DNA of 33,712 nt from a virus, in IMG/VR virus record IMGVR_UViG_3300025853_000022, positions 1 through 33,712 of that record. The stretch is one strand, 5' to 3'. The position numbers and the translations under genes were made by a program. Below, piece by piece: positions 1,260 through 33,712 of this stretch (positions within the stretch are counted from its first letter, which is position 1; each line of letters starts with the position of its first letter). The notes under the pieces are model-generated. The model made no database searches and had not been told where the DNA came from. It saw nothing but the letters and a program-made list of their open reading frames with translations.

Positions 1260-1550
1260 TCAGCTCACGAAGTCTTGAGCGTAATAACATTTACACATCA
1301 CCACACGACCAATAGCGTTCACTCGATAGTGAACCAAGGCTGTTCCTTCTTCACACAGCTTGATTCTGTGGCGCTGAAATCGGCCTTGTTGATAGCTAAT
1401 CTCAATGACGTCAATCAACCCTGTGGGGCAGCTCCAAGCCCAACGGCCTGAGCCGTCCAGCCACAGCGAAGTCATTAACTCCACCTCGCTTCCTACATCA
1501 ATAATCTCAATCTCAATGGCTGCATCACCAAGCTGAAACTGATCAATCAT
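1260..1550 (-). CDS. Small protein of unknown function, opposite strand
   Basis: A 96-residue protein, acidic in its first half (MIDQFQLGDAAIEIEIIDVGSEVE), then with several Trp and Cys residues, including a terminal VVMCKCYY. No family is recognised. The start is supported by an AAGGAGAGAG ribosome site about five bases ahead of the ATG. Its stop abuts the stop of the helicase loader (1257-1259) without a gap. It is the only leftward gene in the rightward early region and is divergent from the ribbon-helix-helix-like gene at 1624, so it probably has its own promoter in the 73 bases between them. It could be a moron-type accessory gene or a small regulator. Confidence 0.65.
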   Translation of the reverse strand: MIDQFQLGDAAIEIEIIDVGSEVELMTSLWLDGSGRWAWSCPTGLIDVIEISYQQGRFQRHRIKLCEEGTALVHYRVNAIGRVVMCKCYYAQDFVS

Positions 1551-1567
1551 TAGCTCTCTCCTTGACC

Positions 1568-1589
1568 GTGTGTCTCATTTGTGACACAC
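1568..1589. promoter_or_regulatory. Inverted repeat between divergent genes (candidate operator)
   Basis: GTGTGTC at 1568-1574 and GACACAC at 1583-1589 form perfect 7-bp arms with an 8-base spacer. The repeat is the most ordered element in the short gap between the leftward 96-residue gene and the rightward ribbon-helix-helix-like gene. A weak TTGACC at 1562-1567 could be a -35 box. Binding by the neighbouring regulator is a guess from position. Confidence 0.4.
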
Positions 1590-1623
1590 TAGCTCATGGT
1601 TGGATTTACCACAAGGCGAAGAT

Positions 1624-1875
1624 ATGGACGCCTTCAAGAGATGGGCCTTGGAGGCGTCCTTATCACTAGGGGATTTTTTAATGACTGTAAGAAACAAGGT
1701 TTGTCATGTACGCCTAAGTTGCGCGGAAGCTAGCTTCGTGGACGGCGAGGCCATGCGGCTAGGCGCCAATCGCTCTGATGTTATTCGAGCGCTGATCTCG
1801 TTGCTGTGGGAAGCCAGGAAGAACAATGGAGAGCTCACCACTCGACTAGAGAAAGAACTGAAGCATTATGATTAA
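1624..1875 (+). CDS. Ribbon-helix-helix-like small DNA-binding protein
   Basis: The ATG at 1624, preceded by AAGGCGAAG, gives 83 residues. A TTG at 1600 and an ATG at 1681 are alternative starts. The segment KVCHVRLSCAEASFVDGEA followed by MRLGANRSDVIRALISLLWE has the strand-helix-turn-helix pattern of the Arc/MetJ/CopG family, where the strand contacts DNA and the protein dimerises. The gene is followed by ssb with an eight-base overlap. It may regulate the divergent pair around the inverted repeat at 1568. Family membership is by pattern only, so moderate confidence. Confidence 0.6.
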   Translation: MDAFKRWALEASLSLGDFLMTVRNKVCHVRLSCAEASFVDGEAMRLGANRSDVIRALISLLWEARKNNGELTTRLEKELKHYD

Positions 1876-2248
1876 CTCAATCCAGCTGCTTGGGAATCTT
1901 GGCAAGGATCCAGAAATGAGGACTACGCCAGCCGGCCAAAGCTACTGTTACTTTTCTTTGGCCACCAACTCATCTCGTCAAGTTGATGGCGCTTGGGTCA
2001 CAGACACAGAGTGGCACAACATCAAGCTGTGGGGTAAGTCTGCAACTAGAGCGAGCGAGCAACTTAAGAAAGGCGCTCGCTGTTACGTAGAGGGCAAAAT
2101 ATCAAGCTATGAGGTAGACGGCCAAAGGCGAATTGAGATCAAGGCTTACAGCTTCAAGGCACTAGACAAGCTTGATCACCTTCTCCCGCCGGATGGGCCG
2201 CCAACCTATCAGTCATCTCCTGGCTTTGGGTCATGGAGTGCGCCATGA
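1868..2248 (+). CDS. ssb: Single-stranded DNA-binding protein
   Basis: A 126-residue SSB with a single OB fold. The start MINSIQLLGNLGKDPEMRTT is the classic SSB N-terminus. It is followed by FSLATNSS, then TEWHNIKLWGKSA and KKGARCYVEGKIS, which are typical OB-fold strands. The usual C-terminal acidic tip (DDDIPF-like), used to recruit host repair and replication proteins, is missing. The protein ends in PGFGSWSAP after a short Pro/Ser linker, so it may not dock host partners in the usual way. It would coat single strands during replication and RecT-mediated annealing. The gene overlaps both neighbours, so it belongs to the rightward operon. Confidence 0.92.
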   Translation: MINSIQLLGNLGKDPEMRTTPAGQSYCYFSLATNSSRQVDGAWVTDTEWHNIKLWGKSATRASEQLKKGARCYVEGKISSYEVDGQRRIEIKAYSFKALDKLDHLLPPDGPPTYQSSPGFGSWSAP

Positions 2249-2925: not shown

Positions 2926-3121
2926 TTATGAAGTGGAAGGCTCTTGGTGTGTGATCGCTGAAGAGCCAGCCGATAACGGTTGGGAGAGGATCACCTTAGA
3001 CCTAGTTGACATTGAGCTAGGAGCGCGAGTGATTAAGCGATACTCTGACCGGCAAGGGCGCGTTAGCTCATCAATATGGGTCGCGACCAAGGAGGGCTTG
3101 AAGCCTTGGCAAGAGAGCTGA
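2858..3121 (+). CDS. Unknown protein between the terminase genes
   Basis: An 87-residue protein overlapping the end of TerS by 68 bases and the start of TerL by 46. The start ATG has a strong GAGGAGACGG ribosome site. It contains a Trp-rich middle (GSWCVIAEEPADNGWERITL) and ends KPWQES. No family is recognised. The long overlaps in different frames could mean the true start is a downstream ATG at 2900, but the ribosome site favours 2858. It may be a packaging accessory; nothing shows this directly. Confidence 0.6.
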   Translation: MSEMLRTTLLRQWSMLHHHERTDYEVEGSWCVIAEEPADNGWERITLDLVDIELGARVIKRYSDRQGRVSSSIWVATKEGLKPWQES

Positions 3122-4491
3122 TCCTCAACCCGCTCCAACAAGACTTGATCGCGAGGATCAGGAGAGAGGATAGAGTCATCTCAGCAAGGTGTGGATGGGG
3201 GGCTGGCAAAACCTCAGCGCTTGTCTTCTCCATCCTCTTCATCTCCAAGTGGAGGCCGGGTACATCAACTCTATTGGTGACGGATACAAACCCGCGTTAC
3301 AACAGCGTGTTAATGCCTGAGATGGAGAAGTGGCTAGGCCCTTTGGGCTGGACATATAATCACTCTCTCAGGCAATGGCTAGACCCGTCCACAGGCTCAA
3401 CTGTTTGGTGTCGGTCTTATTTTAGGCCAGGAACCAGAGACGCCACACACAATCCTCTAGAGGGGCTGAATATCACATCAGGCTGTTGCCTGATCGACGA
3501 GTGTCAAACCCTATCTGCGGAGGTGGCCCACAAGGCGTTAGGCCGTTTGCGCTCTGGCCCATCTCCTATCCTGATTCTAGTGGGGCTACCTGTAGCGGAC
3601 GCTTGGTGGGTGCAGCTCGCTGAGCAATCAGGCCTCTCACCTCTACTCTACACCTCTTACGTCAACCGCGCTCATCTGAGTGAGGAGTGGTTTGAGGCAA
3701 CTGAGCTGCTACCCAAAGAAGAGCGTGAGGCTATGGTCATGAATCAGCCAAGGCCTCCAAGCGGCTTGGTGTATTCAGAGTTTAGGCCTGATGAAATGGT
3801 GCTCGATGATTGGGTGTATGACCCATCAATGAGCGGAAGGATTGCAATTGATTGGGGCTTTCGGAAGCCAAGTGTTTTGATCTTCGCTCATGATCCTCTG
3901 CTAGATGCAGACGTGATCTGTGCAGAGCTCAATCCCCATGAGGTAACCATAGAGCAATTGGCCCGTCTCATCCTGAGCGTAGCTTGGCCGAGATCGCTCA
4001 GGGATCAAGCGCCGGGTGATCGAATCTGGATTGATCAGGGTTGTGCTGATAAGGCCGGTAAAGCTCGCAATGATCAAACAGGAGCCTCAGCATTTAGAGC
4101 AATGCGAGCGCCACCACCTAACGGTTTGGGGATCCCGCTGAGATCGACCACAGACCCGATTAGAACGGATGTTTTGAACGGGGTTCAAAAGCTCAAGCGC
4201 GCCTTCACGCGCAAGCAGTATTTAATCACCAGAGAGGTCTGGAGTTCTGGCGAGCGTGCAACAGGCAACAGCATCAGGAAGGCGCTCATGTCTTATGCTT
4301 GGGAGACCTCCAAAGAGCAACCTAAGAAGGATGGAAGAGAAGACCCGCTTGACGCGCTGAGGTATGATTGCATCATGTTTAGGTGGGCTGATGATCAAGC
4401 GGTTGATCAACGGCGGTACACGCGCTCCACCTCAAGGCCTAAGACCAACAGGAGAATAAGAGCAGGGAGCGCCAAGAGAGGACGCTTTTGA
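3076..4491 (+). CDS. Terminase large subunit
   Basis: A 471-residue packaging motor with the two expected domains. The ATPase half has Walker A at residues 39-48 (CGWGAGKTSA) and Walker B at about 137-142 (CCLIDE), followed by a coupling-type stretch ending LILVGLP. The nuclease half has RNase H-fold acidic residues at D259 (AIDWGF), D320 (IWIDQG) and the D423/D427 cluster (REDPLDALRYD). A very basic tail (residues 445-471) may contact DNA or the portal. The family is clear. The packaging style (cos or headful) cannot be read safely from the sequence. The initiator ATG has no strong ribosome site, so translation is probably coupled to the overlapping gene upstream. Confidence 0.93.
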   Translation: MGRDQGGLEALARELILNPLQQDLIARIRREDRVISARCGWGAGKTSALVFSILFISKWRPGTSTLLVTDTNPRYNSVLMPEMEKWLGPLGWTYNHSLRQWLDPSTGSTVWCRSYFRPGTRDATHNPLEGLNITSGCCLIDECQTLSAEVAHKALGRLRSGPSPILILVGLPVADAWWVQLAEQSGLSPLLYTSYVNRAHLSEEWFEATELLPKEEREAMVMNQPRPPSGLVYSEFRPDEMVLDDWVYDPSMSGRIAIDWGFRKPSVLIFAHDPLLDADVICAELNPHEVTIEQLARLILSVAWPRSLRDQAPGDRIWIDQGCADKAGKARNDQTGASAFRAMRAPPPNGLGIPLRSTTDPIRTDVLNGVQKLKRAFTRKQYLITREVWSSGERATGNSIRKALMSYAWETSKEQPKKDGREDPLDALRYDCIMFRWADDQAVDQRRYTRSTSRPKTNRRIRAGSAKRGRF

Positions 4492-5279
4492 CAGACCGAA
4501 TCATCTCTGAAGAGGAGCTCTATACAGAGCGCTCTCTAACTATAGTGCTTCTCGATCTCGTAAACTCAACGGGCTTTGTTTCGCGCTTCGGTGCTCAGCG
4601 TGCCGCGCGCTGGTTCCAATATCATGACCGTCTGACGCGCTCTCTGCTATACCGGTTTAGGGGACGTGAGATTGATCGCTCAGACGGTTTCCTCTTTACG
4701 TTTGATCGAGCGGTAGACGCGCTTAACTTTGCGCTTTATTATCAGCAGACAGTCCCGCTAAAGGTAAAGATCAAGGCTAGGGTGGGCGTTCACTATGGGG
4801 CAGTGGTGGAGGTTCAACAGCGGGAATTATTGGTCTTGGCCGGCGCCAAGCCAATTGAGGTTGAGGGCATCACAAAGAACATTGCCGCCAGGACAATGGG
4901 GCTAGCCATGCCTGACCAAGTTCTCCTGACTCGTGACGCCTTTTATCAAGTGCGCAATCGAGCAAGCTCAGAGACTCCAAAAGGAACGCGCTTCGCTCTA
5001 GTGGGCCTCTATCGATTCCAAGGCGTTCCTGATGCTCAGGTGATTTATGCCGTGGGCTCAACGATTGAATCTCTGCAGCCTCCACCATCGAGCGACAAAG
5101 CCAAGAGGCTAGGAGGGCCGCGAAAGATCAGATCAAGGATGAGGCACAAAAGATTCAAGGAGTGGCTTGAGCTTATCACTATATTGCTCTCAGTGGCGGC
5201 CTTTGGCTATATCCTTTGGGTGATGTACCCTTATATAAAATACAAAGTCCTTGAGTGGTGGAGCAAGCCAGATGAATGA
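4488..5279 (+). CDS. Class III nucleotidyl cyclase domain with C-terminal membrane anchor
   Basis: A 263-residue protein starting at a TTG that overlaps the TerL stop, after an AGAGAGGA ribosome site. Residues 15-190 match the class III cyclase fold: TIVLLDLVNSTGF with D23 for metal A, RSDGFLFTFD with D66 for metal B, RVGVHYGAVV, then GITKNIAARTMGLAMPDQVL with N131 and R135 in the transition-state positions. Two base-selecting positions differ from ordinary adenylyl cyclases. The Lys of the K-x-x-G-D motif is absent (IDRSD), and the Asp of G-D-x-V-N is replaced (GITKN). Residues 201-225 are basic and 226-250 form one membrane helix, so the enzyme would face the cytoplasm. The product could be a cyclic purine or pyrimidine nucleotide. 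It sits between TerL and portal, a usual spot for cargo genes. Confidence 0.82.
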   Translation: MTDRIISEEELYTERSLTIVLLDLVNSTGFVSRFGAQRAARWFQYHDRLTRSLLYRFRGREIDRSDGFLFTFDRAVDALNFALYYQQTVPLKVKIKARVGVHYGAVVEVQQRELLVLAGAKPIEVEGITKNIAARTMGLAMPDQVLLTRDAFYQVRNRASSETPKGTRFALVGLYRFQGVPDAQVIYAVGSTIESLQPPPSSDKAKRLGGPRKIRSRMRHKRFKEWLELITILLSVAAFGYILWVMYPYIKYKVLEWWSKPDE

Positions 5280-5715
5280 AGAAGACAAGAAGACCAAACG
5301 CGGCTGGTGGTTCAGCGTCATCTTTCTAACGCTGGTGATGGGGCTGATTGTCTTTTTGGCTCGCGTTGAAATCATAGAGAAAAACCGTGATGTGCTCATT
5401 GGCATCTTAGGTGTGCTGACTGGCTCGATCTCCTCAATGCTCGCGATAGCATCAGGGCGCGATCCCGCTGAGGTGGATGAATTAAAACAGGAGCTGAGCA
5501 AACAAGAGGCAGATCGAGCCGCGCTCATCGCTCGCTTGAGAGATGCTCACATCCATAGTCAACTAAAGAGTGATCAGCTCATGCATCTGCAGCTCGCAAT
5601 GATTAAGGCGCTCACTCCTCTTGATGTTCAGGTCTTGACTGAAGACATGGTTCAGCTGAATGAGCACGTTGAGGAGTGGTTGCCTAATGTTGAAAAAAGT
5701 GAAGAGTCAAGTTAA
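5272..5715 (+). CDS. Membrane protein with C-terminal coiled coil
   Basis: With the start at 5272 the protein has 147 residues and overlaps the end of the cyclase gene by eight bases, so the two are probably co-translated. A charged N-terminus (MNEEDKKTKRG) is followed by two hydrophobic stretches, WWFSVIFLTLVMGLIVFLA and VLIGILGVLTGSISSMLAIA. A helical tail (DELKQELSKQEADRAALIARL and onward) then looks like a coiled coil. The layout resembles small phage holins or membrane-tethered coiled coils, but no family is certain. A cyclic-nucleotide-binding domain is not apparent. The tight linkage suggests a partner or effector of the cyclase. A second possibility is an unrelated holin-like protein. 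Confidence 0.72.
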   Translation: MNEEDKKTKRGWWFSVIFLTLVMGLIVFLARVEIIEKNRDVLIGILGVLTGSISSMLAIASGRDPAEVDELKQELSKQEADRAALIARLRDAHIHSQLKSDQLMHLQLAMIKALTPLDVQVLTEDMVQLNEHVEEWLPNVEKSEESS

Positions 5716-5744: not shown

Positions 5745-7136
5745 ATGACGGAGCGCAAAACACCACGCCACCTTAGAGCCACCTCTCCAAGATTTGGGGC
5801 TCGTGGCATTAGCGGCACACAGCTCAACGGTGGCGCTTTATCAGTAGAAAGCAATCCTGAACTGACCGGCCTCAATTGGGTTCAAGCTGCTGAGGAGATG
5901 CTCAGAACTGACCCGATAGTGAGGCGCTCTTGGCATATGCTGAGGCAGACTCTTCTCAGTGCAACTTGGCGGTGGGAACCAGGCATAGAGGGTGACCTTA
6001 TGGCTGAGGAGCTCGCCAGGTTCGCTAATGAATGTTGGGGCCTAGATGGCTACTCTGGGCAAATGGAAAGCTCATGGGAAGAACAGCTATCTTATCTCTT
6101 TGAGTTCGTGCCCGTTGGCTACCGATACGCCGAAGAGATCTACAAGGTGGGGCCGGACTCAAACGGACTGGTCAAGGTGTGGCTCTCCCACTATGCCGAC
6201 AGAGAACCAAGCGCTCACTCTCGCTGGCTTTCTCGTGATGATCAGCATCTTGATGGGGTACTTCAAAACATGGTGGGCTCTGGCAAGACTCCTGAGCCGA
6301 TACCGGCCAATAAGCTAATCCTGTTAACGCTCAACCGAACTGGCTCAAACTTCGAGGGCGTGGGGATGCTGAGGCCTGTGTGGTGGTGGTGGCAGACGAA
6401 GCAGCGGGTCTCTAACCTCATGTGTGTAGGGCTCGACAGGTGGGCCGCGCCAACTCCCAAGGTAATAATTAATCGAGCAGCAGCCGAACAGATAGGCCTA
6501 ACTGATGGCGATATTGACGCCATGATTGATGATGCAGAGGCACAGGCCCAAGCCTTCATCTCAGCAGAGCAAAGCTATTTGGTTGAGAACGCGGCCATCA
6601 AGTTTGATACATACGCGGCTCAACCGTCCATGTATGCAGACGGCCCAATTAACATCATAACTAAATGTGACTCCCAAATAGCTGCGGCCTTCCTCGCTCA
6701 ATTCGCTGATCTTGGAAACACTGAAACAGGAGCGCGCTCAGTGGGAGAGATTCACCTCAGCATATTCAGGAGAGCAGCAATCAACCTGTGTGATCTGGTA
6801 GCCGCTCAGGTTAGCGGGGTTGATCGCCGTGGTGGTGGAACCATTGGGCGCTTGGTTCGGTGGAACTATGGGGCCGTTGATCCTTCCAAGCTACCAAGGC
6901 TAACTCACACAGGGCTTGACACTGATGATCTAGCTGAGTCTTTAGCTATGCTACCTAACCTAGTTCAGTCAGGTTTGATTACTCCTGATGATGAGCTTGA
7001 GCGAGTGATTAGGGCGAAGCTTGGCGCCGGTGATCTCCCTGAAGATGCTCAACGTCCGGCGCTCTCACGTATCCCTTCAGCGGGTGGCGTCTCTGCCTTG
7101 GCCGAATCAATCAGGATCAGGAGGCGCAATGGTTAA
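5745..7136 (+). CDS. Portal protein (Mu gp29/DUF935-like)
   Basis: A 463-residue protein with a good GATAGGAGCG ribosome site. It has the Mu gp29-type layout: an N-terminal DPIVRRSWHMLRQTLLSATWRWEP stretch, WEEQLSYLFEFVPVGYRYAEEIYK, a SHYADREP region, then a long helical segment and ARSVGEIHLSIFRRAAINLCDLVAAQV. The dodecameric portal would sit at one capsid vertex and pass DNA in and out. Its place between terminase and protease/scaffold genes supports the call. The C-terminus is basic (IRIRRRNG), and the stop overlaps the next gene. Confidence 0.88.
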   Translation: MTERKTPRHLRATSPRFGARGISGTQLNGGALSVESNPELTGLNWVQAAEEMLRTDPIVRRSWHMLRQTLLSATWRWEPGIEGDLMAEELARFANECWGLDGYSGQMESSWEEQLSYLFEFVPVGYRYAEEIYKVGPDSNGLVKVWLSHYADREPSAHSRWLSRDDQHLDGVLQNMVGSGKTPEPIPANKLILLTLNRTGSNFEGVGMLRPVWWWWQTKQRVSNLMCVGLDRWAAPTPKVIINRAAAEQIGLTDGDIDAMIDDAEAQAQAFISAEQSYLVENAAIKFDTYAAQPSMYADGPINIITKCDSQIAAAFLAQFADLGNTETGARSVGEIHLSIFRRAAINLCDLVAAQVSGVDRRGGGTIGRLVRWNYGAVDPSKLPRLTHTGLDTDDLAESLAMLPNLVQSGLITPDDELERVIRAKLGAGDLPEDAQRPALSRIPSAGGVSALAESIRIRRRNG

Positions 7137-28319: not shown

Positions 28320-28663
28320 ATCTTAGAAACAGAGACGCTGGGCCTGTGGTGGCAGGGCTGCATCCCGGCGGCCTGATCGCTGGCGTGATAGTCTTGGCTA
28401 TGCTCTCTTATGCGTGGGGAGTTTACGCTGGCTCATCGAAAAGCGAGGCCATCCACAAGGCCAGAGAGGCTGAGTGGACTATCGAGCTCAGCAACCTCAA
28501 GGCCACGATTCACGAGCTCCAAGCTGAGCGAGTCAGCGCCAAGGTTCAAGCAGCTGCTGACTCAGTGCTTGACTGTGAAGCGGTCTGTGCTGAAGAGGTG
28601 GCTAACGCGCTAGCGATCACCACAGAGCTACTCTGTGATCGACCGTGGGAGAAGAAGCTATGA
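28316..28663 (+). CDS. Rz-like inner membrane spanin candidate
   Basis: A 115-residue protein starting at GTG, which overlaps the preceding stop and has GGGAGGTC ahead. It has one N-terminal membrane helix (GGLIAGVIVLAMLSYAWGVY) followed by a charged helical stretch (REAEWTIELSNLKATIHELQ and onward). This is the layout of Rz-type i-spanins. Its C-terminal end holds three Cys residues (LDCEAVC, LLCDR). No outer-membrane lipoprotein partner was found in or beside it, so the assignment is tentative. Confidence 0.55.
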   Translation: MNLRNRDAGPVVAGLHPGGLIAGVIVLAMLSYAWGVYAGSSKSEAIHKAREAEWTIELSNLKATIHELQAERVSAKVQAAADSVLDCEAVCAEEVANALAITTELLCDRPWEKKL

Positions 28664-29097
28664 ACCTCCTCTGGCTGATTCCTTGGACGATCTATGGAGC
28701 CGCTAATGAGATCATCATGGGCGAGCATGAAGACCCCATTGTAGCTGCGCGCATTGAGTTGACAGACCACCGAGACCCATTGATGGCGATCCCTGTTAGA
28801 GATTGGGTTCGGCTCAAACGGCGAGCGGAGAGCGCTTTAGGCTATTGCGACTCATCAATCCAGGCCGCCGTCAAGAGCGCTCATGAGCAGTGCTTGATTG
28901 AGATTGGTCAGGCTGTGAGCATGCAGGAGCAGAGCACAGCAGACTCTCAACAGATGATTGCCGCTCTTCAGCTCAGCCTTGATTTGAGGCGTGAGGAGCT
29001 CCAAGCGGCTAGGGCCACTGCTGAGACGATGACTTGGGTTTCCATAGGTGTGGGCGCTGTGGCGCTCACCTCAACTCTGCTTTGGGTTACTAAGTAG
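28660..29097 (+). CDS. Membrane protein with helical middle, lysis-region
   Basis: With the ATG at 28660 (GGGAGAAGAAG ahead, overlapping the previous stop) the protein has 145 residues. A hydrophobic N-terminus (MNLLWLIPWTIYGAANEIIM) and a C-terminal membrane helix (WVSIGVGAVALTSTLLWVTK) flank a long charged helix with a coiled-coil look. It could span the periplasm between two membranes or be a tail-anchored partner of the upstream protein. No lipobox is seen. Its last 27 bases overlap the convergent gene at 29071. Confidence 0.55.
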   Translation: MNLLWLIPWTIYGAANEIIMGEHEDPIVAARIELTDHRDPLMAIPVRDWVRLKRRAESALGYCDSSIQAAVKSAHEQCLIEIGQAVSMQEQSTADSQQMIAALQLSLDLRREELQAARATAETMTWVSIGVGAVALTSTLLWVTK

Positions 29098-29583
29098 AGC
29101 GCGGCGTTTGTGGTACTGCTCACGCCAATACTGCCTGACAGCCTCGATCTGTTCGGCGCTCATGGCGGCTCTTTTTCGCCGGCGATATTCTCTTTGGTAT
29201 TGGCGGCGAGCCTCTAGCTCTTCCTCGCTCATGCTCAGTAGCTTGAGCTTGCGATAGACTCTTTCGTCCTCGCGTTGCTCTTCAGTCATGTTGGCTCTAC
29301 GCTCGCGGTCATATTCGCGCTTATATTGGCGCATAGCCTCACGCTGTGTAGGTGTCATGTTGGCGTACCATTGGCGCTGATATTCACGCTTAGCCTCTCG
29401 CTGTTCTTCAGTCATCTGCCTTCTCTTTTCATTTTGTTCTTTGCGCTCCTGCTCGCTCATTTGGGCGCGTCTTTGGCGCTGGCGCTCGACCTTGGCTTTA
29501 CGTTGCTCCGGTGTCATCCTTGCATAGTGAAGGCGCGCATATTGACGATTACGCTCTTTCTCGGCTTCGAGATCTTCAGTCAT
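29071..29583 (-). CDS. Highly charged helical repeat protein 2
   Basis: A 170-residue protein made almost entirely of Arg, Lys, Glu, Gln and Tyr in helical repeats of about 19-23 residues. Each begins with a Met-Thr/Ser-x-Glu-Gln step (RMTPEQRKAKVERQRQRR, QMTEEQREAKREYQRQWY, NMTEEQREDERVYRKLK, AMSAEQIEAVRQYWREQ). The design recalls STPR-type DNA-binding repeats, but the unit is shorter. No catalytic or membrane segment is present. The ATG overlaps the end of repeat protein 1. It is the last gene of the leftward operon, and its stop lies inside the convergent rightward gene. Nucleic-acid binding is inferred from charge. Confidence 0.72.
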   Translation of the reverse strand: MTEDLEAEKERNRQYARLHYARMTPEQRKAKVERQRQRRAQMSEQERKEQNEKRRQMTEEQREAKREYQRQWYANMTPTQREAMRQYKREYDRERRANMTEEQREDERVYRKLKLLSMSEEELEARRQYQREYRRRKRAAMSAEQIEAVRQYWREQYHKRRALLSNPKQS

Positions 29584-30352
29584 CTGCCTTCTCTTTTCTT
29601 TTGTGGTACTGCTTGCGCCTATATTCGCGCTGATATTCGCGCTGATATTCGCGCCAGGCCTCTAGCTGTTCGGGAGTCATGTTGGCGTACCATTGGCGCC
29701 GATATTCACGCTTAGCCTCTAGCTGTTCGGGAGTCATGTTGGCGCGCCACTTGCGGTCATGCTCACGCTTAGCCTCTCGCTGTTCGGGAGTCATGTTCGC
29801 GCGCCACTTGCGCCTATATTCGCGCTCAGCCTCTCGCTGTTCGGGAGTCATGTTGGCGCGGCGCTTGCGCTTATATTCGCGCTCAGCCTCTCGCTGTTCG
29901 GGAGTCATGTTGGCGCGCCACTTGCGCTGATATTCGCGCCTAGCCTCTAGCTGTTCGGGAGTCATGTTGGCGCGGCGCTTGCGCTTATATTCGCGCTCAG
30001 CCTCTCGCTGTTGTCGGTGATATTCCCTCTGTTGAGCGTAATAAGCGGCACGCTCCTCTTCACTCATATTGGCGATCTTTTCCCGGCGTGACTGGCGCCT
30101 CTTCGCTCGCCTCTGCTCTTGCTCTTCAGGGCTCAGGCTCTGCCAGTAGAGGCGTTGTTGTAGCGCCATCATTCTTCGATCCTCATCAGTCCGATTAGCA
30201 GCATATTGACGTTGCCTCATCTTGTGGCGCTCGCGGTAAGCATCCAGCTCTTCTGGCGTCATTCGAGCTCTACGCTTGCGCTGATACTCTCTGTGATAGG
30301 CTCGCCGTCTCTCAGCCTGTTCCTCTTCAGTGTATATCTTGTGGCGTCCCAT
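29576..30352 (-). CDS. Highly charged helical repeat protein 1
   Basis: A 258-residue protein. The N-terminus (MGRHKIYTEEEQAERRRAYH) leads into repeats whose core unit is 19 residues, ANMTPEQREAEREYKRKRR. Six copies near residues 125-240 are almost perfect, with more diverged ones before them. Predicted structure is one long, very basic and acidic helix with a regular Met-Thr-Pro-Glu break. It lacks Cys and has no hydrophobic core, so it may bind nucleic acid or fold on a partner. The ATG overlaps the stop of the RecT-like gene (TGATG), so it is probably translationally coupled to it. This links it to recombination or DNA packaging by context only. Confidence 0.75.
   Translation of the reverse strand: MGRHKIYTEEEQAERRRAYHREYQRKRRARMTPEELDAYRERHKMRQRQYAANRTDEDRRMMALQQRLYWQSLSPEEQEQRRAKRRQSRREKIANMSEEERAAYYAQQREYHRQQREAEREYKRKRRANMTPEQLEARREYQRKWRANMTPEQREAEREYKRKRRANMTPEQREAEREYRRKWRANMTPEQREAKREHDRKWRANMTPEQLEAKREYRRQWYANMTPEQLEAWREYQREYQREYRRKQYHKRKEKADD
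29666..30007 (-). repeat. 57-bp tandem repeat inside repeat protein 1
   Basis: The marker CTGTTCGGGAGTCATGTT (plus strand) recurs at 29666, 29723, 29780, 29837, 29894 and 29951, exactly 57 bases apart, so each unit encodes 19 residues. Variation between units lies mainly at the charged or aromatic positions. Copy number could change by slippage or by RecT-type annealing. Confidence 0.9.
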
Positions 30353-31497
30353 CAGGAGGCTGAGCCCATCTCCATGTCATCATCGAGGATCGATTGAACA
30401 TAGTCAAAGGCCGTCCAGTCCATGGGGTTCATCTTCTTGAGGACATTTAAAGCCACCTCTCTGCGATCCTTATCTTTGATCATCTCGCTAAGCTTGAGCG
30501 TCTCCATGAAGGCGCCACAGGGGAGGCGTGGCCCAAGGTGCTGGACGCTCAAAAACTTGGTCAGTGGTAGCTGATCCCATAGTGCTCTGTGGATGGGCTC
30601 AACCTCTCTCATGGAGCCATTGAACCAATGCTGAGAGATGGAGTTATCCATGAGTGCATGAGGAGCACAGCGAGAGTAGAAGAGCGCCTCTCTCTGTTGA
30701 GGAGTTAGCGAGGTTGGAGACTCCACCGTTTCACTGATGAAGGCCACAGCGTCCTCAAGGTTTACTCCCCATGAGCGACAGGCCTTTGTCAGCGCGTCAT
30801 CACTGCTCCAATCATACAGCCTGTTGGGCTCTGGCTGTGACTGTGGCGGCTGTGACTGTGGCGGCTCTGACTGCTGAGGAGCTCGCTGAGATTGCTGAGG
30901 AGCTCGCTGAGATTGCTGAGGAGCTCGCTGAGACTGAGGTGGCCTAGATGGTAGGTCAGTGCCAAGAGCATGAGCTGTGATCACATCTCTCTCATGGTCG
31001 CTCATTGATGTGTTATCAGCGATCTCATCAGCAGAGTATACCCCACTCACTGCATCTGGAAAGGTGGCCCGAAGCCCTAGGGTGAGCGCTCGGGCTCTCA
31101 GCATCTGCTGAGGCATCTGTTGCCAGTTTCGGTTTCTCGTGAGCCCTTGTTGTTGGGCCATCTGAATCGTGAAGCTGTACGTATGGACAATCTCATCAGG
31201 CTCATCTGTACGAGCCATCTCAAGAGAGCAGACCTCAGCGCTCCACTCTGTAATTCGCAGATAACGGCAAAGGCCTGAGCGTCTGCATATGCCGGCCATA
31301 GCGTCTGCGTTAAGCGTTGGCTTGCCCTTCAGGACATAGCCTTGAGTCATGGTTAAGCCAAGATCGCCTCCAAAGTGATGGCCGAAGGCAGCGTGAAGCT
31401 GGAGCAGATCCATGGGCTTGCCGTTGCTTAATAGGTTGCTCATATCGAGCGCCTCTTGTACTGAGGCTGGATTCCATATAGAAGTCTTAGTTGTCAT
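30352..31497 (-). CDS. RecT-like single-strand annealing protein
   Basis: A 381-residue protein with AAGGTCACACC before the ATG. Residues 15-165 follow the RecT family: LDMSNLLSNGKPMDLL, GLTMTQGYVLKGKPTLNADA, MAGICRRSGLCRYLRITEWS, SFTIQMAQQQGLTRNRNWQQ, then MLRARALTLGLRATFPDAVS and GVYSADEI. It should anneal complementary single strands during phage recombination. Residues 185-225 are a low-complexity SQRAPQQ/Pro linker made of 21-bp DNA repeats. Residues 226-381 form a separate helical domain not seen in short RecT proteins. No exonuclease partner gene was found beside it. SSB at 1868 would be its working partner. Confidence 0.85.
   Translation of the reverse strand: MTTKTSIWNPASVQEALDMSNLLSNGKPMDLLQLHAAFGHHFGGDLGLTMTQGYVLKGKPTLNADAMAGICRRSGLCRYLRITEWSAEVCSLEMARTDEPDEIVHTYSFTIQMAQQQGLTRNRNWQQMPQQMLRARALTLGLRATFPDAVSGVYSADEIADNTSMSDHERDVITAHALGTDLPSRPPQSQRAPQQSQRAPQQSQRAPQQSEPPQSQPPQSQPEPNRLYDWSSDDALTKACRSWGVNLEDAVAFISETVESPTSLTPQQREALFYSRCAPHALMDNSISQHWFNGSMREVEPIHRALWDQLPLTKFLSVQHLGPRLPCGAFMETLKLSEMIKDKDRREVALNVLKKMNPMDWTAFDYVQSILDDDMEMGSAS
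30872..30934 (-). repeat. 21-bp tandem repeat in the RecT-like linker
   Basis: Three tandem 21-bp units start at 30872, 30893 and 30914. They encode the SQRAPQQ heptapeptide three times, and the adjoining Pro/Ser/Gln stretch continues the same flavour. The linker probably sets the distance between the annealing core and the C-terminal domain. Length may vary between relatives. Confidence 0.85.
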
Positions 31498-31907: not shown

Positions 31908-32540
31908 TTAAGCGATTAAGCCAAGATCGAGCGCTCTTGAGTCAGCGAGTTCATAGAGAGGGGTTAGAACTTCGGCTAAGGTGTCGGCTGATACTCCATT
32001 GAGATGGGCTTGCTGATGGATTGAGCGCAACTCATTAAACGCCCAAATCAAGCCTTCAGCGTCTCCGTTCTGCATAGTGTGGTATAGGCCGTTAAGTGTC
32101 TCAGCACAGCTCACTGCATAGCCTTCTGTGGGCTCTTCTTCGATGATCTCAGCTGGCTCACTGATGAGCTCTTCGCTGGCCACCTCAGTGGGCATATTGT
32201 TAAGCTCATGAGCGCGAGCGTCAGAGAGTGCATAGAGAGGGCTGAGCACAGTCTCAAGCACGCTGGCAGAAACAGCGTGAAGGTGTGCGTGCTCATGAAT
32301 GGCGCGAAGCTCATTAAAGGCCACAAGGACGCCTTCACGGTCTGCCGTCATCATCGTCTCAGCGAGTTCTTGGAGCTGTTCAGCGAGCTCATAAACGGGC
32401 TCTAGCTCGCTGAATGCCTCAGCGCTGTATAATCGACTCTGATATGTCTTTCGGATCTCTGAGAGAGCAATCTCGAAGCTGTTGGTTCCAGAGGCGTTGA
32501 GGATGTCAGCAAGCTGATTGAATGTGTTTGTGATTGTCAT
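31908..32540 (-). CDS. Protein with internal duplication, first gene of leftward operon
   Basis: A 210-residue acidic helical protein with AAGGAACACACC ahead of the ATG. Two segments of about 55 residues are clearly related. The first has VLVAFNELRAIHEHAHLHAV and SPLYALSDARAHEL; the second has LIWAFNELRSIHQQAHLNGV and TPLYELADSRALDL. An acidic Glu/Pro linker lies between them. No family is recognised. Its leader resembles that of recT (AAGGTCACACC). As the first gene after the divergent control region it is probably expressed early, so roles in host takeover or recombination are possible. Confidence 0.68.
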   Translation of the reverse strand: MTITNTFNQLADILNASGTNSFEIALSEIRKTYQSRLYSAEAFSELEPVYELAEQLQELAETMMTADREGVLVAFNELRAIHEHAHLHAVSASVLETVLSPLYALSDARAHELNNMPTEVASEELISEPAEIIEEEPTEGYAVSCAETLNGLYHTMQNGDAEGLIWAFNELRSIHQQAHLNGVSADTLAEVLTPLYELADSRALDLGLIA

Positions 32541-33231: not shown

Positions 33232-33712
33232 AAGAGGTACAGATTCGGGCGGCCATATATAGCTTGACGCTCAAGCCAAACACTAAGCTTACCCTGTTGG
33301 GTGTTTTGTCTGTGGTCGACTGGAAGACGTTCAGCGGCCCTTGCTCCTCGCGTGATGTGGGCAAGCGGATGAGCATGAAGGAAACATCTGTAAGGCGTTC
33401 TTTCAAAGAGTTGAATGAGATGGGCCTTATAAGGCGTTCGGCATCAAGGCGAGCGGCTGACCAGCATCACAGAGCTGTGACCTATCTAGAGGTTCAGGCC
33501 ATCTTAGACCTAGCTCATAATGAGCTACCCCCCCTAGCTCATAGTGAGCTACCCCTAGCTCATAATGAGCTACCCCCCCTAGCTCATAATGAGCTACCCC
33601 TAGCTCATAGTGAGCTCCCCCCCCTAGCTCATAATGAGCTACCCCTAGCTCATAGTGAGCTACCCCCCCTAGCTCATAATGAGCTACCCCTAGCTCATAG
33701 TGAGCTACCCCC
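33228..33712 (+). CDS. O-like replication initiator, N-terminal part (continues at base 1)
   Basis: This is the first 161 codons of a gene that runs off the window end. The ATG overlaps the stop of the HTH regulator (ATGA). Residues 1 to about 95 look like a winged helix: a helical stretch with the segment SSRDVGKRMSMKETSVRRSFKELNEMGLIRR, which has the shape of a recognition helix plus wing seen in phage replication initiators. From about residue 95 the frame runs through tandem DNA repeats that encode LAHNELPPLAHSELP units without a stop. The last 29 bases match bases 1-29 in the same frame, so the gene continues at the window start and ends at 339, for about 264 residues in all. The next gene is a DnaC-type loader, as in the lambda O-P pair. 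The role of origin recognition is inferred from fold, iterons and neighbours. Confidence in the reading frame is high and in the function good. Confidence 0.82.
   Translation, partial: MKEVQIRAAIYSLTLKPNTKLTLLGVLSVVDWKTFSGPCSSRDVGKRMSMKETSVRRSFKELNEMGLIRRSASRRAADQHHRAVTYLEVQAILDLAHNELPPLAHSELPLAHNELPPLAHNELPLAHSELPPLAHNELPLAHSELPPLAHNELPLAHSELP
33511..33712 (+). repeat. Origin iterons inside the initiator gene (right-end block)
   Basis: Nine copies of a 17-bp palindromic unit start at 33511, 33535, 33556, 33580, 33601, 33625, 33646, 33670 and 33691. Spacing alternates 24 and 21 bp. One form is TAGCTCATAATGAGCTA, with 8-bp arms around a central A. The other is TAGCTCATAGTGAGCTA, with 7-bp arms around TAG. 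The copy at 33601 ends in C instead of A. Both spacings are multiples of three, so the frame stays open. Units are separated by runs of C. Iterons inside the initiator gene are the lambda-type origin design, so this is the probable replication origin. Confidence 0.85.

Follow-up and report, generated by a model that had tools for sequence, protein, structure and literature searches.

Two repeat genes behind recT in a viral genome appear to encode diverged relatives of STPR DNA-binding proteins

The window analysed here is the whole of a virus record of 33,712 bases. On its minus strand, a recT-like gene is followed by two genes, named W1 and W2, whose products are built of charged tandem repeats (Table 1). 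The recT product (P0003) matches PF03837 with 29.7 bits (cut-off 24) and a RecT-like PHROG with 80.8 bits. The three genes overlap by 1 and 8 nt, as if translationally coupled, and the early operon ends at a convergent late gene on the far side of W2.

Table 1. Features of the recT-W1-W2 region, in window coordinates
Feature	Coordinates	Strand	Remarks
W1, 258-aa STPR-like protein of charged, predicted helical tandem units of 19 residues (some 23)	29576..30352	-	ATG start
Six near-identical 19-aa units of W1 (residues 128-241), period 57 bp	29630..29971	-	
W1 residues 1-114, portion conserved with the first L003 repeat gene	30011..30352	-	85% identity
W2, second repeat gene, 170 aa	29071..29583	-	Residues 57-170 88% identical to L003c
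Overlap of the W1 3' end with the W2 5' end	29576..29583	-	8 nt
recT-like single-strand annealing protein	30352..31497	-	PF03837; stop overlaps W1 start by 1 nt (TGATG)
Convergent gene adjoining spanin-like gene	28645..29097	+	Overlaps W2 end tail to tail

W1 contains 76 Lys and Arg against 49 Asp and Glu residues, a net charge of +27, and only 9 of its 258 residues are Ile, Leu, Val or Phe. Therefore, its description in an earlier note on this DNA as charged and without a hydrophobic core holds. The same note had given the coordinates of the reading frame correctly and had noticed six near-perfect 19-residue units besides diverged ones. The former were located by Tandem Repeats Finder (57 bp × 6.6 copies at 29639-30012, 87% matches, score 543); the latter, of 19 or 23 residues, precede them. 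W2 and the 23-residue units had been overlooked. Unit lengths in W1 and W2 also include 23 and 15 residues, and thus change in steps of 4. The spacings between unit anchors in the window are 19 (seven times), 23 (twice), 42 (twice), and 24, 15 and 34 (once each), which differs from a regular tandem array of 23-residue units. Repeats also occur elsewhere in the recT operon. An upstream gene (31908-32540, minus strand) consists of two similar halves, and its counterpart in the viral contigs L003 and L019 is enlarged by (EELTEEPAEE)n text, so that the operon as a whole gathers repeats. Within recT itself, three perfect 21-bp repeats (30872-30933) encode a QQSQRAP linker from the annealing domain to the C-terminal part.

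In the AlphaFold2 model of W1, calculated with 11 aligned relatives, every unit is a helix of its own, eleven in all, and the chain is interrupted at each T-P-E motif (mean pLDDT 94.7, pTM 0.48). The low pTM indicates that the mutual placement of the helices is not defined. Seven helices (96.8) were predicted for L012d, a relative encoded on contig L012. A chain of separate helices, one per repeat, as in STPRs, is thus predicted by the AlphaFold2 models of both proteins (11 and 7 helices), and the single long regular helix proposed in the earlier note is contradicted by the W1 model. A Foldseek search of the PDB with the two models returned just an unrelated designed protein with E > 1, and silkworm FMBP-1 was not among the matches listed. 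A VIA second look at both models, confined to that designed protein, gave nothing useful.

No family match was found for W1 or W2 in Pfam (hmmscan), NCBIfam or PADLOC. The Pfam family STPRs (PF21107) has a curated cut-off of 27 bits; in a six-frame search, W1 scored 15.3 and 11.2 bits, under this value, and W2 gave no match. The same relaxed six-frame search also gave sub-cut-off signals in 4 of 14 control genomes. An HMM built from the four repeats of FMBP-1 alone does not separate either protein from shuffled sequences, the best unit of W1 being equalled by 11 of 300 shuffles and that of W2 by 121 of 300. Profile A2, made from five proteins of the window and L003 alone, did not find FMBP-1 among the PDB sequences. 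PHROGs 6573 and 10510 gave 37 and 32 bits with W1; since no single stretch passed, and since phrog_6573 had no six-frame match in the window, in L003 or in the controls, these scores were put down to composition noise. The Glu4-Arg9 salt bridge is reported to be important in FMBP-1 repeats (PMC4821344). The corresponding pair (E/D at position 4, R/K at position 9) is present in 42 of 51 canonical phage 23-mers and 7 of 14 recT-side 23-mers, and in a minority of recT-side 19-mers (8 of 22). The FMBP-1 motif ATNTWTNTA occurs once in the window versus 3.3 expected, and is thus not enriched. Because W1 does not pass the direct tests, a minority of the recT-side 19-mers keep the E4-R9 pair, the motif is not enriched and no structure match was obtained, W1 and W2 are not filed as STPR members.

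The resemblance to FMBP-1 (PDB 5d23, 5d2q, 5d2s) lies in the tandem x-T-P-E-(Q/E)-R ... Y ... R-x-A-N units, in their basic character, and in one predicted helix per unit. In contrast to FMBP-1, the units of W1 and W2 are mostly 19 residues long (one turn shorter), carry Met for Glu at position 1, keep E4-R9 in a minority of cases and score below the Pfam cut-off. Moreover, FMBP-1 is from an animal (silkworm), whereas W1 and W2 are from a phage.

Canonical STPR genes are found in the same phage lineage. Scans of viral contigs with W1 relatives and with RecT identified similar genes right behind recT in L003, L019, L009/L010 and L011 (contigs L009, L010 and L011 also appear as L020, L021 and L022), while L012 has a tandem series of five; a later find brings its total to six. 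A further scan with the L012 and L023 genes gave at least 26 loci. In most of them, relatives of the terminase, DnaC, SSB, cyclase or portal genes of the window are present. The repeat genes of these loci read ANETPEQREKRLAKxREYxRxRR in 23-residue units, and 51 of 74 unit spacings in the canonical relatives equal 23. The Pfam STPRs cut-off was passed by 9 of the 10 relatives given to Pfam, with 154.1 bits for L050 (the best), 140.5 for L048, 86.4 for L012f and 78.0 for L049; L012d reached 50.9 bits. With phmmer, FMBP-1 (5d23) was the sole PDB sequence with E < 1 for L049 (E 2.9e-11) and the one significant PDB sequence for L012d (E 2.3e-8). It also ranks first among PDB sequences (5.8e-8) for profile A3, which comprises 14 phage proteins. 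The repeat genes of the lineage (L003, L009/L010, L011, L012, L019, L023, L048-L072) resemble W1 and W2 in repeat type, phage neighbours and colinear segments, and differ from them, with variation, in unit length, gene number (1 to 6) and genome position.

An HMM of the 51 phage 23-mers connects these genes to the window. W1 scored 17.9 bits (maximum of 500 shuffles 10.5), W2 17.2 bits (maximum 8.6) and FMBP-1 29.2 bits (shuffle maximum 10.4), so the unit pattern of W1 and W2 is recognised above composition, each beating 500 of 500 shuffles. Among nine recT-side proteins, a set that excludes L009c and L011b, which carry an extra C-terminal domain, eight scored above all shuffles and L9b was equalled by 1 of 500. 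Additionally, residues 58-147 of W2 align colinearly to L012e with 62% identity over 90 aa (E 5.6e-31); L012e in turn has a canonical STPR unit at its end and outscores 300 of 300 shuffles with the FMBP-1-only HMM. The R14-E15-Y16-x-R18...A22-N23 residues of the 23-mer correspond to R10-E11-Y12-x-R14...A18-N19 of the 19-mer, the R-E-Y-x-R...R-A-N block being exactly 4 positions earlier in the 19-mers. The 19-residue unit therefore looks like a 23-residue unit less four middle residues, equivalent to one helical turn. The link of W1 and W2 to STPRs is weak directly and strong through the phage intermediates, and the two proteins are diverged STPR relatives, not formal members, which probably work like STPRs. 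The earlier suggestion of a likeness to STPR repeats with a shorter unit is strengthened by the Pfam-passing 23-residue relatives and by the profile that beats all shuffles; the repeat-aware profile search that went with it recognised W1 and W2 through the phage unit HMM and fell short of the Pfam cut-off. Given the canonical relatives and this profile recognition, binding of nucleic acid by W1 and W2 is a reasonable inference.

Some repeat proteins have additional features. The final recT-side cassette genes of L009 (6852-7553) and L011 (6362-7060), encoding L009c and L011b, differ from W1 and W2 in combining repeat units with a C-terminal domain of C-x2-C pattern, for which no match was found in Pfam, PHROGs or PADLOC. 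A 190-kb viral contig with no homologues of the window genes (L064, 4882-7191) contains three tandem genes with an N-terminal C-x2-C...H-x3-C pattern followed by many ANMTPEQRE-type units. Two sets of Lys/Ala-rich repeats from other viruses, with (A/M)-(T/S)-P-x-Q-R units (L014 1854-2711, inside a structural gene cluster; L015 ~6001-6456), were set aside for their different genome context, although they pass the STPRs cut-off in six-frame searches; they are possibly a separate histone-like group. Weak viral matches (L004, L016, L017) were not counted as family members.

The distribution of STPR genes was surveyed in loci chosen by terminase similarity alone, namely the best 80 of 146 relatives of the window terminase in IMG/VR, with overlapping contigs of one phage counted as separate loci. 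STPR-type ORFs were found in 21 of these 80 loci, and in 16 of the 43 loci with both SSB and TerS. At a threshold of 12 bits, 29 real ORFs passed and no reversed ones; the contigs used to train the unit HMM included 3 of the 21 positive loci (L059, L088, L093), the other 18 being outside training. The genes lie between SSB and TerS in 9 positive loci, between the contig end and TerS in 4, between TerL and the cyclase gene in 3, between DnaC and SSB in 2, and on the recT side in 2 (L077, L085), with single cases elsewhere. Carried by 21 of 80 loci at several positions, they are thus accessory and change place within the early region. The SSB-TerS interval is a variable spot of the lineage, and in L023 it also holds an HNH-type gene beside the STPR genes (1379-2014, minus strand).

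Outside the viral contigs, a tblastn search of phages and plasmids with W1 and two relatives, queries partly masked by SEG, found nothing. The L048 protein recovers 26 of 27 known STPR loci under SEG, and as a query it found no match in 50,697 phage (INPHARED) or 72,556 plasmid (PLSDB) records. None of 398 sampled Pseudomonadota genomes had a match over the STPRs cut-off, and unit pairs used alone as the query found nothing. Six matches from a bacterial genome scan (among at least 590 candidates) were short, secreted or out-of-frame, with MTPEQR-like text, and were judged unrelated. Literature searches on STPR and FMBP-1, including in combination with phage, found no report of a phage STPR among the largely open-access sources covered.

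The contig L003 shows how these genes vary. Its recT is about 90% identical to that of the window, and three repeat genes come after it, one more than in the window. The N-terminal part of W1 matches the first L003 gene and its C-terminus resembles the end of the second, whereas W2 corresponds to the start of the second plus the whole of the third (88% over 114 aa). The repeat genes thus appear to change by unit shuffling. The orthologous parts are under purifying selection as protein, with dN/dS of 0.24 for W1 residues 1-115 and 0.18 for W2 residues 57-170 versus L003c, compared to 0.08 for recT.

The coupling to recT described in the earlier note is found in the window and in six more contigs (L003, L019, L009/L010, L011, L055, L056), but the majority of the lineage's STPR genes lie at other positions. 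The repeat gene overlaps recT by 1 nt in L003, as in the window, and by 4 nt in L056, and follows it after 2 nt in L019, 7 nt in L010 and 81 nt in L055. Units behind recT are of the 19-residue type in the window, L003, L019, L009/L010 and L011, and canonical in L056 and L055. In a RecT scan of 23 loci, in which overlapping contigs of one phage were taken as separate loci, a repeat gene lies behind recT in 5 (L018 to L022), and none was found in the 14 loci inspected downstream of recT. Therefore, RecT does not require a repeat gene. In its position directly behind recT, W1 resembles the partner genes of RecT-family annealing proteins (PF03837); unlike such partners, W1 and W2 are not nucleases and have no similarity to RecE or exonuclease partners in Pfam, PHROGs, NCBIfam or PADLOC. 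Since most STPR genes of the lineage lie at other sites and most recT relatives have none behind them, a recT-specific role, such as the recombination accessory suggested earlier, is not specifically supported. The link is compatible with such a role and equally with mere membership of the early operon.

These observations are brought together with moderate confidence in the proposal that W1 and W2 are STPR-derived tandem-helix DNA-binding proteins, made together with RecT from the early operon and most likely serving phage DNA metabolism as accessories that coat or mark DNA. A structural paper of 2016 reportedly shows the tandem helices of STPRs following the major groove, with about four base pairs per helix. 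In W1 and W2, each unit would form one short basic helix, capped by (M/E)-T-P-E and joined by a three-residue turn to the next, and the unit would be the 23-residue STPR unit minus four residues, or one helical turn. The most plausible inference is that this helix chain binds along the major groove, each helix spanning a few base pairs as in FMBP-1; by this analogy, the 11 helices of W1 could line a long DNA stretch, probably with low sequence specificity. The STPR domain of FMBP-1 is helix-rich and rigid on DNA and flexible without it (PMC4821344).

The proteins might instead regulate transcription, of late genes for instance, binding DNA in the STPR way without being coating or recombination factors. 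Late-gene regulators are often located just before terminase genes, and the SSB-TerS interval is the commonest STPR site (9 of the 21 positives among the 80 terminase-selected loci), with 4 more between contig end and TerS. FMBP-1 is itself a transcription factor (PMC4821344). This possibility deserves attention but is doubtful, given that STPR positions vary (behind recT, DnaC-SSB, TerL-cyclase, TMp-portal), that W1 and W2 are not beside the terminase gene in the window, and that a single regulator would not usually come as several paralogues in one phage (L012 has five or six) with lengths from ~60 to 355 aa. Binding of RNA or single-stranded DNA in aid of RecT-mediated annealing would suit the direct coupling to recT, with its overlaps of 1 or 4 nt and gaps of 2 or 7 nt. 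Arginine-rich helices are able to bind RNA. This role is nonetheless quite unlikely, as STPR is known to bind double-stranded DNA and 14 of the 23 RecT-scan loci have no such gene downstream of recT.

The two remaining alternatives dispense with nucleic-acid binding or with the protein itself. W1 and W2 could be convergent, low-complexity charged helices of compositional STPR likeness, serving as spacers, scaffolds or protein-binding rods. The failure of W1 with the Pfam cut-off and the FMBP-1-only HMM points this way, as do the MTPEQR repeats of unrelated bacterial secreted or LTXXQ-like proteins. Such convergence is rather unlikely in view of the unit scores of W1 and W2 (each reached by none of 500 composition-preserving shuffles), the ratio of 29 real to 0 reversed ORFs in the 80 loci, the colinear chain from W2 through L012e to the canonical STPR genes of its cassette, and the basic excess of +27 in W1. 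The near-perfect 57-bp repeats and their evident reshuffling between the window and L003 could also mean that the array acts as DNA, as a recombination hot spot or replication element with an incidental reading frame. This is highly improbable, because the frame is kept in all units, dN/dS is 0.18-0.24 in the orthologous parts, and the protein pattern is kept in relatives with different DNA.

Extending the DNA-coating proposal, it is tentatively suggested that STPR is a modular coating system of this lineage of uncultured tailed phages, with one to six genes per phage, reshuffled through recombination between repeats and inserted at varied early-region sites. Its recT branch, one turn shorter, would form a second class that follows the major groove with a different helical step, the recT-coupled forms would load with RecT on phage DNA, and transfer of the repeat between phages and animals would have taken place. 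Among DNA-binding domains, STPR is a rare type. It has been described from nematodes to humans (Takiya 2005, title), and canonical genes across a phage lineage would take it beyond animals. They offer biophysics a set of small natural proteins with 2 to 15 repeats, and the natural 19-residue variant could test whether repeat length must match the groove. The STPR link also gives an initial clue to what unannotated genes do in a lineage with no terminase relative among the isolated phages searched.

The window terminase (3076-4491, plus strand), with 146 relatives in IMG/VR, had no tblastn match at 1e-10 in the 50,697 phage records; by these matches it marks a sizeable lineage that is not represented by isolates in that collection. 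No relative of it was found in the 398 Pseudomonadota genomes, in a search without positive control. Directly after this gene lies a class III nucleotidyl cyclase-like gene (4488-5279, plus strand), which matches PDB 1ybt (phmmer E 7.6e-9) and other cyclases, with no Pfam match at E 0.01 and none in PADLOC. Homologues are present in 60 of the 80 terminase-selected loci (best 80 of 146) and none was found in isolated phages by tblastn; this lineage-wide phage cyclase merits separate study. The next gene (5251-5715, plus strand), present in 48 of the same 80 loci, encodes a probable membrane protein with a weak, below-cut-off match to SLATT_fungal (E 0.004), a 2TM effector domain. We take the cyclase and 2TM protein to resemble Pycsar-like pairs. 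A gene that probably encodes a replication initiator runs across the record ends (33232-33712 and 1-300). Its middle contains an array of 21/24-bp units with a AGCTCATWATGAGCT-like palindrome core, read as (PLAHxELP)n, and it precedes a DnaC-like loader gene (336-1259), as with an origin inside the initiator gene. Similar in-frame repeats are found at the initiator position in L019, L022 and L027.
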